Assembly (NCBI RefSeq): GCF_947487575.1
Contig: NZ_CANKXG010000007.1
Coordinates: forward strand, 62,001 to 126,000
Origin: an uncultured Algibacter sp.
GTDB taxonomy: Bacteria; Bacteroidota; Bacteroidia; Flavobacteriales; Flavobacteriaceae
Direction of reading: 5' to 3'
DNA length: 64,000 nucleotides
In this document: positions 4,448 to 34,104 of the stretch, one piece after another
How the letters are laid out: every line of letters starts with the position of its first letter
Numbering within the stretch: the first letter of the stretch is position 1
Translations under genes and position numbers: made by a program
The notes under the pieces: generated by a model
Databases searched by the model: none
What the model was told of the DNA's origin: nothing
Seen by the model: the letters and a program-made list of their open reading frames with translations, nothing else

Positions 4448-4600
4448 CTAATGTTTCCTGAATTTAATTGTGAATAAATAGGTCGTTCAATAGTTATACG
4501 AACAAAAGTTACATTTTGTTACAAAAAAGATTAAAATATTTTCAATCCCTTAGTAATTAGACACTAAAAACACAAAAAAGTCACATTCATTATAATTATT

Positions 4601-4692
4601 TTGGGCATTACCCACAAGGGGTCGGGCTTTCCGCTGCAAGTCCTCGCACCTCCTGCGTCGGGCTGTGGGCTTTCCACTACAATCCCTAATGC
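4601..4692 (+). repeat. Intergenic repeat family 1, copy A
   Basis: Begins TTGGGCATTACCC, continues with GGTCGGGCTTTCCGCTG, and ends CAATCCCTAATGC. The same start and end recur at 10475, 21451 and, in reverse, at 37675 and 11958. The ends are imperfect inverted repeats (GCATTA/TAATGC here; GCGTTA/TAACGC elsewhere). It lies in the 385-base gap between rpoD and the GH26 gene; the rest of that gap (4448-4600, 4693-4832) shows nothing beyond AT-rich upstream sequence. A 64-codon open frame over this copy is not a gene. Confidence 0.8.
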
Positions 4693-4832
4693 GCTCACTC
4701 TTACGGCTCACTCAAAATTCAAAAAAAACATTTTAAATTGCTGTTTATTAGTTAGTTGTAGTTTTAGCATTATTTTATATAAACTTAGATGTTAACATGT
4801 AAAGCAATAGAAATTTATCCGACAAAGAATCT

Positions 4833-5984
4833 ATGAAAAAATCAATACTTATAATAACATTTGCAGTATGTATTAACATTAGTTGCGAAAAAGAAGAAGA
4901 TGATTTATTCGATATAAACGCCGTAAGAACGCCACCACTTATTACCGCTCCTAATAATTTTGTAGACCCCAAGTTAAATCAACAAGCAAAAGATTTATAT
5001 GGTAGATTAATAAATATAACCCAAAAGGGGATAGCTTTTGGCCAACAGCAACCCTTTGGCACAGGAACTGATTTTTCAGTACCAAACCAATTACAACCAG
5101 ATTTCTTTGATGTTACAGGAGACTTTCCGGCCATAGCTGGTTTCGATTTAGAAGAAATTAGTCTCCAATCAGATTCAAATACTCCTGAATCTTTTCTAGA
5201 CAAATTCATTAATAGATTTACTAAAGCAGTAATAGAAGCACACGAAAATGGAAGTATTATAACCATAAGTTGGCATCATATTAATCCGCAAGGTTTTGAT
5301 GCAAACGGAATAGAAAATTTTGACGGAGTAGTAGCTAAGTTTTTAGAAGGCGGTGAATTCCGTCAAGAATATATTAAGCGTCTATCTCGAGCCGCAAGAT
5401 TATTAAATAATTTAGTAGACGCTCAAGGTAATTCCATACCAGTATTGTTTAGGCCTTGGCATGAAATGAATGGAAGCTTCTTTTTTTGGGGAGATGGTTT
5501 TAGAACAACAGACGATTATATCCAACTCTGGAAAGACACTATTAAAATCTTATCTGAAGATTTTAATGTTCATAACCTTATTTACGTTTACGCACCTAAC
5601 TTAATTTCTAATAGATCAGAATACTTAAGAAACTATCCAGGAGACGAATTTGTAGATATGTTGGGCATTGATGTCTACGATTTTAGAAATAGAAATTTTT
5701 TAAATAACGCCATAAGAAATTTACAAATTGTAGAAGATATAGCCACAGAGAAAAACATGCTTTTCTCACTTACGGAAACAGGCTTAAAGAATGTTGTAGA
5801 TAATAATTGGTGGACACAAAGTTTATATAAAGCGATTAGAAGTAGCAGTATTAGTTATGCTATGATATGGAGAAATGATATGACCATATTTTTTCATGCA
5901 CCCTTTCTTGGTCATCCATCCGAAGGTGATTTTAATGAATTTTTAGATAAAGAAATTATATTATTAAGTAGTGATATTGAGTAA
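4833..5984 (+). CDS. Glycoside hydrolase family 26 lipoprotein (endo-beta-mannanase type)
   Basis: GH26 enzymes are retaining clan GH-A glycosidases, mostly endo-1,4-beta-mannanases. The 383-residue protein starts with a lipoprotein signal (INISC, lipid-modified Cys18), so it should be anchored in the outer or inner membrane. The catalytic barrel spans roughly 50-375. The acid/base glutamate is in FRPWHEMNG (Glu211), followed by FFFWG, and the nucleophile is in SLTETG (Glu315). SWHHINPQG near 146-154 is a substrate-cleft signature of the family. No SusC/SusD pair is adjacent, so it is not in an obvious polysaccharide utilization locus. The family is clear; mannan as substrate is inferred from the family majority. 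Confidence 0.92.
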   Translation: MKKSILIITFAVCINISCEKEEDDLFDINAVRTPPLITAPNNFVDPKLNQQAKDLYGRLINITQKGIAFGQQQPFGTGTDFSVPNQLQPDFFDVTGDFPAIAGFDLEEISLQSDSNTPESFLDKFINRFTKAVIEAHENGSIITISWHHINPQGFDANGIENFDGVVAKFLEGGEFRQEYIKRLSRAARLLNNLVDAQGNSIPVLFRPWHEMNGSFFFWGDGFRTTDDYIQLWKDTIKILSEDFNVHNLIYVYAPNLISNRSEYLRNYPGDEFVDMLGIDVYDFRNRNFLNNAIRNLQIVEDIATEKNMLFSLTETGLKNVVDNNWWTQSLYKAIRSSSISYAMIWRNDMTIFFHAPFLGHPSEGDFNEFLDKEIILLSSDIE

Positions 5985-6061
5985 AAAGACTTTCTGAAAA
6001 TTTTTGAGTAAGTTGAATATGTATTAACTTATTTCAAGACTAATATTTTTTAAACAAGAAA

Positions 6062-6085
6062 AAGCCCATCAAATTTGATAGGCTT
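6062..6085 (-). terminator. Terminator between convergent GH26 and GT2 genes
   Basis: Hairpin AAGCC-c-ATCAAATTTGAT-a-GGCTT, followed on the minus strand by a T-rich stretch (ttttt cttgttt). It lies between the two convergent stop codons and best serves the leftward GT2 gene. Confidence 0.7.
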
Positions 6086-6111
6086 CTAATAGTTTGAAAT
6101 TCTAACAATAA

Positions 6112-7548
6112 TTATTTCTTCTCTGTCAAACCACGAGTTAACCAACCCCGTCTATTAGCTGTAGCTATCGCATAAGGTGTAATCCAAAAGAGGCCGAATG
6201 TATATAAAATACTGTATGAGTAAGCCCAAAAACCTTCAAATGACTTATAGCTATTAGCAAAAAATAGTACTGAAAATGTTGAAAAAATTAAAATGCTAAC
6301 TAAAGTGGATCCTAAAAATAACAACGGATGTACTAAAACAAAAAACAGCATAAAAATAACCAATGGATAACTGATTAATATTTTTAAAAACTGACTAATA
6401 AATAAGGAGCGAATTCCGAATTTAGATCCAGATCTAAAATTGGTAAAAACAAATTTTGACATTTCAAGATTTTCACGAACATTACTGCGTCCCCATCTAA
6501 TAAACATTTTGTATAAACCTGGATATTCTTCTGGAACATTAGTATATGCCACTGCGTTTTTTTGAAATAAAACATGTTTTCCTTGCTTTAAAATCATGTT
6601 GGTCATGGCGCGGTCTTCTCCAATATCACTTGGTTGACCCATAAAAGTCTGATTAATCCATTGTGGTAAACAGTTGTGAACAGCAGTACTTCTATATGCA
6701 GCCAAAGCTCCAGGTGTGCATAATACGGAATTCAAATTACTTTCAGCAGAGCGTACAAATTCAAAACTCAACACGAAACTTACATCTAGCATTTTTGGTA
6801 GCATCTCTTTTGTATTGTTTAAAACACGAATGTTTCCAGCTACTGCGCCACAATTTTTATCTTTTACAAAAGGACTCACTAAATGTCTAATAGTGTCGGT
6901 ATTTACTATAGAATCACTATCAACAGTAATGAAAATGTCACCACTACCAACGTTAAAACCGCGGTATAGTGCATGACGTTTTCCTTTGTTTTCAGGCTGT
7001 TTAAAAATTTCTAAACGATTACTTAATTTTTTTTTAGCATCAATAATCCAATCCCAGGTATCATCTAAACTACCATCATCAATTGCAATAATCTCTAATT
7101 TATCTTTTGGATAATCACTTTTCTCTAAACTCATTATTGTATCCCAAACCTGTTTACCTTCATTATAAGCAGGTACTATAACTGTGCAGGTTGGTAATTC
7201 TTCATCTGATACAGACTTAATAGGTTTGTATTTATAGTAGTTATACGCTATATAAAGAAACATAATTGCTTTATAAACAAGCAAAATTAAGCCAACAATA
7301 CCGAAAACAGCACCTAAAGTTGAATCCATACGATTTGCATTAAATTCTTCAAAATCATTATGAAAAACCGAGAAAGAATAAATGCCTAGTGCAATCAATA
7401 AAAAAGTACCTAGAAGAATAATTTTATTTTGAGGGTTCTCTGTTTTTCCATTATTATGAAAAAGTCTACTTATATAGTTCTCTATTGTATTGATTTTACT
7501 TTTTGCATTTGATTTAATTTTAGAAGGATTAATTTGGGGGGTAGACAT
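6112..7548 (-). CDS. Processive family 2 glycosyltransferase (polysaccharide synthase)
   Basis: A 478-residue membrane GT2 enzyme of the chitin/hyaluronan/cellulose-synthase group, which polymerizes nucleotide sugars at the inner face of the cytoplasmic membrane and exports the chain. Two membrane segments (about 42-62 and 78-102) precede the catalytic domain. The processive GT2 motifs are in order: Asp157-Asp158 (IAIDDGS), Asp210-Ser-Asp212, Glu311-Asp312-Arg313 (GEDR), and Arg351-Trp352 (FIRWGRS), the last corresponding to QxxRW. About three more membrane helices follow (385-460). No partner genes for export or modification are adjacent, which fits a self-contained synthase. The sugar polymerized cannot be deduced. 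Confidence 0.88.
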   Translation of the reverse strand: MSTPQINPSKIKSNAKSKINTIENYISRLFHNNGKTENPQNKIILLGTFLLIALGIYSFSVFHNDFEEFNANRMDSTLGAVFGIVGLILLVYKAIMFLYIAYNYYKYKPIKSVSDEELPTCTVIVPAYNEGKQVWDTIMSLEKSDYPKDKLEIIAIDDGSLDDTWDWIIDAKKKLSNRLEIFKQPENKGKRHALYRGFNVGSGDIFITVDSDSIVNTDTIRHLVSPFVKDKNCGAVAGNIRVLNNTKEMLPKMLDVSFVLSFEFVRSAESNLNSVLCTPGALAAYRSTAVHNCLPQWINQTFMGQPSDIGEDRAMTNMILKQGKHVLFQKNAVAYTNVPEEYPGLYKMFIRWGRSNVRENLEMSKFVFTNFRSGSKFGIRSLFISQFLKILISYPLVIFMLFFVLVHPLLFLGSTLVSILIFSTFSVLFFANSYKSFEGFWAYSYSILYTFGLFWITPYAIATANRRGWLTRGLTEKK

Positions 7549-10474: not shown

Positions 10475-10574
10475 TTGGGCGTTACCAATCCCGATAGCTA
10501 TCGGGAGGTCGGGCTTTCCACTATATCTTTTTTGAATAAAAATCAAAAAAGGATGCCGCTTCAATCCCTAACGC
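10475..10574 (+). repeat. Intergenic repeat family 1, copy B
   Basis: Starts TTGGGCGTTACC and ends CAATCCCTAACGC like the other copies. Between them sit a perfect palindrome CCCGATAGCTATCGGG and a second inverted pair (TCTTTTTTGA / TCAAAAAAGGA) not found in the other copies. It directly follows the family 2 element at 10370 and directly precedes the rpsO terminator. An open frame across 10364-10633 is an artefact of the repeats. Confidence 0.8.
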
Positions 10575-10582
10575 AAAAAATA

Positions 10583-33021: not shown

Positions 33022-33345
33022 AATTATATATTTTAAAGTTTATACCTGTAAGACGTTTGCCAAAATATAAAAGGGGACAGGTTTTTCAAATTTAATTTAT
33101 TTTTATTTAGGTGTTACTTCAATAATGGGTGCTGCTTCAATCTTTAGCGCGAAAAAAGGAAATGATTAAAAACGCTTTAATTATTCGGGAAGTTCGTTTA
33201 ACGTTGTTAAGTATGATTTAGTTGCATGGTTAAGTAACTAATTTAGTAAACAAAAACAAACGCGATAAAATTCCGAGGGAATTTTTCAAATAAGTACTTG
33301 CCTAAGCAATGAATTATACACATCTTAAGTTTGTAATCACTAAAT
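33022..33345. other. Intergenic region with inverted-repeat motifs
   Basis: 324 bases without a gene. It contains TTCGTTTAAC (33193-33202), which recurs inverted at 34052-34061 on the other side of the next gene. A perfect hairpin AAAATTCC-gag-GGAATTTT lies near 33267-33285 and a short TTGC-ctaa-GCAA hairpin near 33298-33310. The right half looks like a conserved non-coding sequence of the kind that borders cassette-like genes in Bacteroidota, but that is from memory of sequence style, not a match I could run. Confidence 0.4.
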
Positions 33346-33984
33346 TTAATCTTTTGGCCTTGATGGTGGACTAAAATAGTTTTCATCAATTAAAAGTATT
33401 TTCAAATCCCTTTTGTTTGTAATTCGATAATAAGTTTCTGTAAGTTGATTTAAGATGTTAGGCAGATTATTAAATTCATTTTTATCATCATACTGAATAC
33501 ATATCGTTAGCTTTTCTGAGCTTTCACTTAAGTCTAAATTTTTCCCATTATTTTCAATATCTTTTTTTAAAACATTCTCTAAATTATCTAAAGAAATACC
33601 AGATTCATTGTTTTTACTAATCTTATTATTATAGATTCCAATTGCATTTTTAAGTTTGATAAATCTAATAGAATCTTCTTTCAGACAAGTGTTTCTGAAA
33701 TAAATGGTTTTAATTTTACCGTCTGTTGTTGAAGTTATTTTCGGTATACTATCATTACAGATTATTTTTTCAATTCGATTAATTAGGTCAATCCAGTTTT
33801 CGAAATTATTAACGTTTAATTCAACGCCTAGACTATCATTTTGTCTATTCCACTTTCCAAATTCCATTTGAACCAAGGTCGTTTCTTTTTGTGTTGACTC
33901 TTTTTCTTTTTTGTCAGTGTTTCGACACCCGATTATTGTTAAAATTAGTATAACAGAAAAAGATACTTTAATTTTATTTACCAT
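33346..33984 (-). CDS. Hypothetical lipoprotein
   Basis: A 212-residue protein from the ATG at 33984 (the frame is open 11 codons further, into the palindrome upstream). The signal peptide MVNKIKVSFSVILILTIIGC carries a lipobox with Cys20, so it is a predicted lipoprotein. The mature part is polar, with short strands and two cysteines, and shows no family I recognise. It is flanked on both sides by inverted-repeat sequence (33193-33202 and 33985-34061), which suggests a mobile or recently acquired gene. Confidence 0.7.
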   Translation of the reverse strand: MVNKIKVSFSVILILTIIGCRNTDKKEKESTQKETTLVQMEFGKWNRQNDSLGVELNVNNFENWIDLINRIEKIICNDSIPKITSTTDGKIKTIYFRNTCLKEDSIRFIKLKNAIGIYNNKISKNNESGISLDNLENVLKKDIENNGKNLDLSESSEKLTICIQYDDKNEFNNLPNILNQLTETYYRITNKRDLKILLIDENYFSPPSRPKD

Positions 33985-34061
33985 TTCGTTTAGCTTGTAT
34001 GTACCACAATGTTCCACTGATAAAAAATCGTTTCAATGTTTTTTATCAAGTGTTAAACGAA
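33985..34061. repeat. Imperfect palindrome abutting the lipoprotein start codon
   Basis: The ends are TTCGTTTAGC-TTG and CAAgt-GTTAAACGAA, imperfect inverted repeats. The interior holds a second stem GATAAAAAA / TTTTTTATC. The total is 77 bases and it begins one base before the start codon of the gene at 33984. The arms GTTTAGC and GTTAAAC resemble integron attC core sites (RYYYAAC/GTTRRRY), with one mismatch in the first. Confidence 0.5.
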
Positions 34062-34104
34062 GTTAGCTAATTTTTCTTACAAAGCAAAGTGTGTGTTTCA
34101 TAAA

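Follow-up and report, generated by a model that had tools for sequence, protein, structure and literature searches.

The window, a 64,000-nt stretch of DNA from an uncultured Algibacter sp. (contig NZ_CANKXG010000007.1), carries on its minus strand a single lipoprotein-like gene, preceded by the left half of a promoter-bearing docking site, here called B, and followed by an attC-like recombination site of a family here called A (Table 1). Its 212-aa product gave no Pfam match above the cut-off and no NCBIfam match, whilst homologues were found in 15 of 201 genomes of the family, the source genome counted. The unit itself had no match in Rfam at gathering or permissive thresholds.

Table 1. Features of the cassette locus (positions in the window)
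Feature	Position	Strand	Basis
Lipoprotein-like ORF, 212 aa, family not recognised	33346..33984	-	ORF list
Inserted gene cassette, 808 nt	33202..34009	-	Homology to G069 array cassette begins at the core; G008 locus has another insert with equal borders
Cassette borders, A/TT and G/TT	34010/34009 and 33202/33201	-	
Docking site B, left half: promoter and GTTTAAC arm, as far as the ATT core (34010-34008)	34010..34092	-	
B promoter element TTTGCTTTG	about 34088-34080	-	
B promoter element TAACTTCG	34065-34058	-	
Covarying hairpin of B, GATAAAAAAC-ATTGAAACG-ATTTTTTATC, conserved loop CATTrAAACG	34019..34047	-	
Family A attC-like site belonging to the cassette	33193..33330	-	R2 match, 111 bits, E=1.3e-22
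Docking site B, right half: GTTAAACGAA arm, 3′ of the cassette	33193..33202	-	
Degenerate Flavo-1-like fragment CGCGCTAAAGATTGAAGCAGCACCC, about 52 nt beyond the right arm	33127..33151	-	Motif position

A gene between the two halves of one palindromic site

The original prediction described a lone lipoprotein gene of unknown function beginning at a 77-nt imperfect palindrome with GTTTAGC/GTTAAAC arms (33985-34062), with a copy of TTCGTTTAAC beyond the other end of the gene. Gene and palindrome are both present, and the copy lies at 33193, where a repeat search of the window paired it with 34052-34071. The palindrome, treated as single-stranded DNA, yields better folds than its dinucleotide shuffles on the two strands (z = -3.5 and -3.9), with 1/200 and 0/200 shuffles equally good.

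The unit had been read as a mobile cassette with attC-like ends. It is indeed a gene cassette, and the predicted coordinates were near base-exact, but the 5′ palindrome is not its attC: the GTTTAAC arm comes from the resident docking site and the GCTAAAC arm lies within the cassette leader. The latter arm is not conserved, as a copy of the cassette in another genus (G069) has ACAAAACGAA at that place, and we regard the 77-nt palindrome as mostly accidental. The TTCGTTTAAC arms at 34061 and 33193, the significant repeat of the locus, flank the whole unit and are the two halves of one palindromic docking site, with the cassette sitting at the [A/G]TT core within the 3′ arm. The true attC-like site, 3′ of the gene, had been overlooked.

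The alternative suggested was a gene with a large 5′ RNA structure, which would make the palindrome a regulatory RNA element of an ordinary gene resident at the locus. The palindrome does fold significantly, and a transcript would have the covarying B hairpin at its 5′ end. However, the 77-nt structure depends on the GCTAAAC arm that is missing from the G069 copy, and the gene itself is missing at the orthologous locus of the congener G008. An RNA role for this palindrome is contradicted by the data and the reading as a whole is hardly credible; in place of a large 5′ structure there is no more than a short leader hairpin, though the short B hairpin could have a role as RNA.

Docking sites form a genome-wide family

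The repeats of the window belong to families found throughout the genome, with 34 BLAST matches and, at E <= 0.01, 39 (B) and 55 (A) covariance-model matches. The left half of B in the window (R1 model match at C7:96016-96092, 91 bits, E=2e-14) aligns with 20 other copies, and we count about 35 B sites in the genome. Each comprises a promoter-like stretch (TTTG ... TAnCTTCG), then GTTTAAC, then a hairpin whose loop is conserved. The TAnCTTCG element closely resembles the -7 consensus of flavobacteria, TAnnTTTG (PMC9723704). Compensatory changes were observed in 5/10 consensus pairs of the hairpin in an alignment of 21 copies, and 12 copies have GTTAAACGAA 41-52 nt past TTCG. The site also exists in an empty form, the palindrome TTCGTTTAAC-hairpin-[A/G]TTAAACGAA, in which typically 51 nt separate the left and right arms. 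Empty sites made up 12 of the 62 loci scanned, a biased estimate of the ratio of empty to occupied sites because B loci were picked from strong model matches.

In occupied sites the [A/G]TT is succeeded by RRRY..., a gene, an A site and then GTTAAACGAAC, which in most cases lies immediately 3′ of the attC. The largest ORF runs in the same direction as the B promoter in 26/30 cases, and in some B loci no attC or right border can be recognised. The cargo includes redoxin-type proteins, an APH-type kinase, an amidohydrolase, an OLD-like TOPRIM/ATPase, a caspase-like protein, a trypsin-like protease and many unknowns. Separately, we noted an insert lacking any ORF and starting GTTGGAGTGAATTCCTGCGTCATTCACTCCAACGTCCC that recurs both in array positions and in docking sites (L017 about 4200, L018 about 820, and L023 and L039 about +60 and about +55 from the B TTCG, respectively); it may be a non-coding mini-cassette.

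Docking sites are commonly accompanied by Flavo-1 RNA (RF01705), the function of which is not known (PMC9723704). It was found past the right arm, in the same orientation as B, at 8/9 related docking loci tested, usually about 55-65 nt beyond the site. In the window, the fragment listed in Table 1 is not recognised as Flavo-1 by Rfam. In this genome 22 Flavo-1 matches exceed the gathering score and 94 reach E<1, among them one at 10503-10579 of the window; many have no docking site, and the RNA behaves as a dispersed repeat.

Sites are inherited whilst inserts differ

B matches were found in 40/201 sampled genomes of the family, with exact B sequences in Algibacter, Gaetbulibacter, Flaviramulus, Hyunsoonleella and Wocania. 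B lies at orthologous positions across species with differing inserts, the border falling at the core within a few bases. In the empty/occupied pairs L020/L172, L026/L167, L053/L192 and L013/L184, and also between the window and G008, where both sites are occupied, both flanks align and the insert alone differs. The original prediction had named the same gene at the same place in relatives as evidence against a cassette. At the window locus G008 has the same flanks and docking site, with an insert that carries an AraC-type regulator and other genes, which favours a cassette. The window unit is thus one gene with an attC that is missing from the equivalent site in relatives. Among the congeners, conserved synteny downstream of pruA was found in G008 only, the others being different; in G005 an attC cassette array lies downstream of pruA.

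We also observed a radical-SAM-like gene behind pruA in G008 (L160, G008:C6, about 4560-6310, minus strand), accompanied by a second pruA 3′ end together with its terminator. It looks as if this were a separate element that restores the end of pruA upon insertion.

The cassette of the window recurs in G069 at 86% nucleotide identity over the gene, between two attC sites of an array. The homology begins at the core and the cassette is present alone, without B. A more distant homologue of the gene in G023 likewise lies between attC sites of a long array. These observations bear on whether B is the end of a mobile element, with genes reaching it by homologous recombination or by transposition of a whole B-gene-Flavo-1 unit. 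In favour of such a reading, B and Flavo-1 are high-copy repeats. Against this, B is orthologous between species with different inserts bordered at the core, the ends of cassettes complement their own attC (see below), and the window cassette occurs in an array without B. We therefore strongly disfavour this explanation and consider it very improbable.

attC sites and complementarity of cassette ends

A sites are 123-136 nt long, with an R′′ start typically xCTAACAACG or xCCAACACCG and an end CGTTRxC; the R2 covariance model used to find them is specific to this family and was built here. The largest group forms an array on contig C6. Outside this array, 14/25 attC lie less than 2.6 kb downstream of B on the same strand (chance 1.3% each, P=2e-20), leaving 11 without a nearby B. 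Groups of two to three attC with no B nearby occur at G000:C2:239522-240725, C2:269512-270449, C5:232001-232696 and C7:148859-150358 and are possibly older CALIN-like remnants.

The DNA fold of the 3′ site of the window, taken as a single sequence, is not significant, and the structure of the site is weakly visible in the alignment. The main proof comes from the complementarity of cassette ends. In a circular integron cassette the start is joined to the cassette's own attC, so the start should complement its own R′′ rather than that of a neighbour. Within the C6 array the mean score of cassette starts against their own R′′ is 5.66/8 (shuffled 2.52+-0.28), compared with 3.0 for R′′ against the start of the next cassette. 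Dispersed cassettes at B sites score 5.52 (shuffled 2.52+-0.25), and in both sets 0/20,000 shuffles reach the observed value. This signature of circular integron cassettes is therefore seen in array and dispersed cassettes alike.

The ends of the window cassette do not pair (2/8). Its R′′ box is decayed, reading ACTTAAG where an RYYYAAC fitting the cassette start is expected; the G069 copy has CGCACCACAAC and the start TTGTGGTrCATA is kept in both. It is this change of R′′ that accounts for the failure of the ends to pair. An intact R′′/R′ that would permit circular excision is lacking in the window unit, and this copy of the cassette is probably no longer excisable.

A recombinase heads the main array

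A search for an integrase had been proposed as a further check, and the genome does encode a tyrosine recombinase at the head of an attC array (393 aa, contig C6 249200-250381). An attI-like ATATAACTAGTT directly follows the gene and then 30 attC with R′′/R′ boxes; these R2 matches, all on the plus strand, begin 0.9 kb past the recombinase and extend over C6:251318-286657, reaching the contig end. In 10/11 homologues the attI-like ATATAACNAGTT lies no more than about 110 nt from the stop codon of the recombinase and is followed by a cassette-like start, and this conservation of the motif points to a candidate attI at which cassettes would be joined at GTT. Homologues also head arrays in G009, G023, G021 and G005. 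Across 40 relatives, recombinase and attC are both present in about 24 and both missing in 13.

The catalytic residues are invariant, and archaeal XerA and an integron integrase are both close to the protein in sequence and fold. It scores 213 bits against TIGR02249 (cut-off 265). Residues 278-300 stand opposite residues 182-247 of the integron integrase 2a3v, such that the IntI-specific insertion is absent; therefore this is not an integron integrase by the usual definition. The additional domain is required of integron integrases (PMC9668308, PMC2426708), and a classification of tyrosine recombinases describes an integron-like subgroup in which the insertion is not fully conserved, yet essential for integron function (PMC8138268). 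The absence is a point against our interpretation, in which this enzyme would handle attC. The protein also has about 95 additional residues at its N-terminus (L038 6201-6480), a domain predicted to fold as two strands, a helix, two strands and a helix. Its similarity to HARP is weak (Pfam E=0.03) and the Foldseek matches listed are recombinases, not HARP; the domain might help with folded DNA.

The enzyme that inserts cassettes at B is likely to be this C6 recombinase. A variant of our interpretation that changes the enzyme alone would assign the insertion to the host Xer or to another tyrosine recombinase. There are seven PF00589 matches in the genome, hence other tyrosine recombinases to choose from, and several array-head homologues in relatives are broken by stops. 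Set against these are the position of the C6 recombinase at the head of an array with a conserved attI-like motif and its co-occurrence with attC in relatives, and we consider the variant unlikely.

A proposed distributed integron and its relation to known systems

The anatomy of the sites, empty and occupied orthologues, exact junctions, own-end complementarity and the same cassette in a foreign array together form the basis of our interpretation. The unit is very probably an integron-type gene cassette that was put into a resident chromosomal docking site by site-specific recombination. The docking site consists of a promoter, then a palindromic att site (GTTTAAC-hairpin-GTTAAAC) and then usually Flavo-1 RNA. 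Under the proposed mechanism, which we infer wholly from sequence, a circular cassette, its attC presumably used as a folded single strand, would recombine within the 3′ arm, at its [A/G]TT core; the promoter and 5′ arm would consequently lie before the gene, and the attC and 3′ arm behind it. The cassette would then be expressed from the promoter of B.

The usual integron combines a single recombinase with a single attI, promoter and array, and its enzyme has a special IntI domain. We lean towards the view that what is present here is a distributed integron, in which dozens of docking sites, passed on vertically, each with a promoter and usually with Flavo-1 behind it, are spread around the Flavobacteriaceae chromosome. 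Cassettes would be carried to these fixed loci, and not just to a single attI, from a largely silent array for expression by a Xer/IntI-like recombinase that lacks the IntI domain. If so, a chromosome with dozens of inherited expression sites, together with an array-head recombinase devoid of the IntI domain, would revise the requirements for cassette recombination. Moreover, many "orphan" genes in marine Flavobacteriaceae would be explained, and the unexplained Flavo-1 RNA would gain a genomic context. In the open-access literature we found no description of inherited docking sites that carry promoters and lie scattered next to Flavo-1, nor is the system described in the open-access literature on integrons of Flavobacteriaceae. 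IntegronFinder 2.0 reports Salinibacter ruber as the sole complete integron within Bacteroidetes proper (PMC9024848).

Among known elements, Flavo-1 RNA shares the neighbourhood and orientation of the docking site but also occurs without B. CALINs and lone attC resemble the dispersed single cassettes in having attC far from a recombinase, whereas most of those here have at their borders a palindromic site that is conserved, inherited and equipped with a promoter, and that occurs in empty form as well. The attG secondary sites are likewise genomic sites outside attI and attC that accept integron cassettes, and two articles (PMC12901181, PMC12444791, citing Loot et al. 2024) portray them as divergent, non-classical sites over many loci. 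In contrast to attG so portrayed, B is a conserved site of ~77 nt with a promoter, a covarying hairpin and both core arms, and is orthologous between species. The closest likeness is to the chromosomal (sedentary) integron: a tyrosine recombinase heads a long same-strand array with an attI-like ATATAACNAGTT adjoining, the attC have RYYYAAC / GTTRRRY boxes, there is usually one gene per cassette, and the start of each cassette complements its own R′′. It differs in that the recombinase here lacks the IntI-specific insertion, has the extra N-terminal domain and is co-directional with its array, and in that cassettes are also found in dozens of dispersed docking sites.
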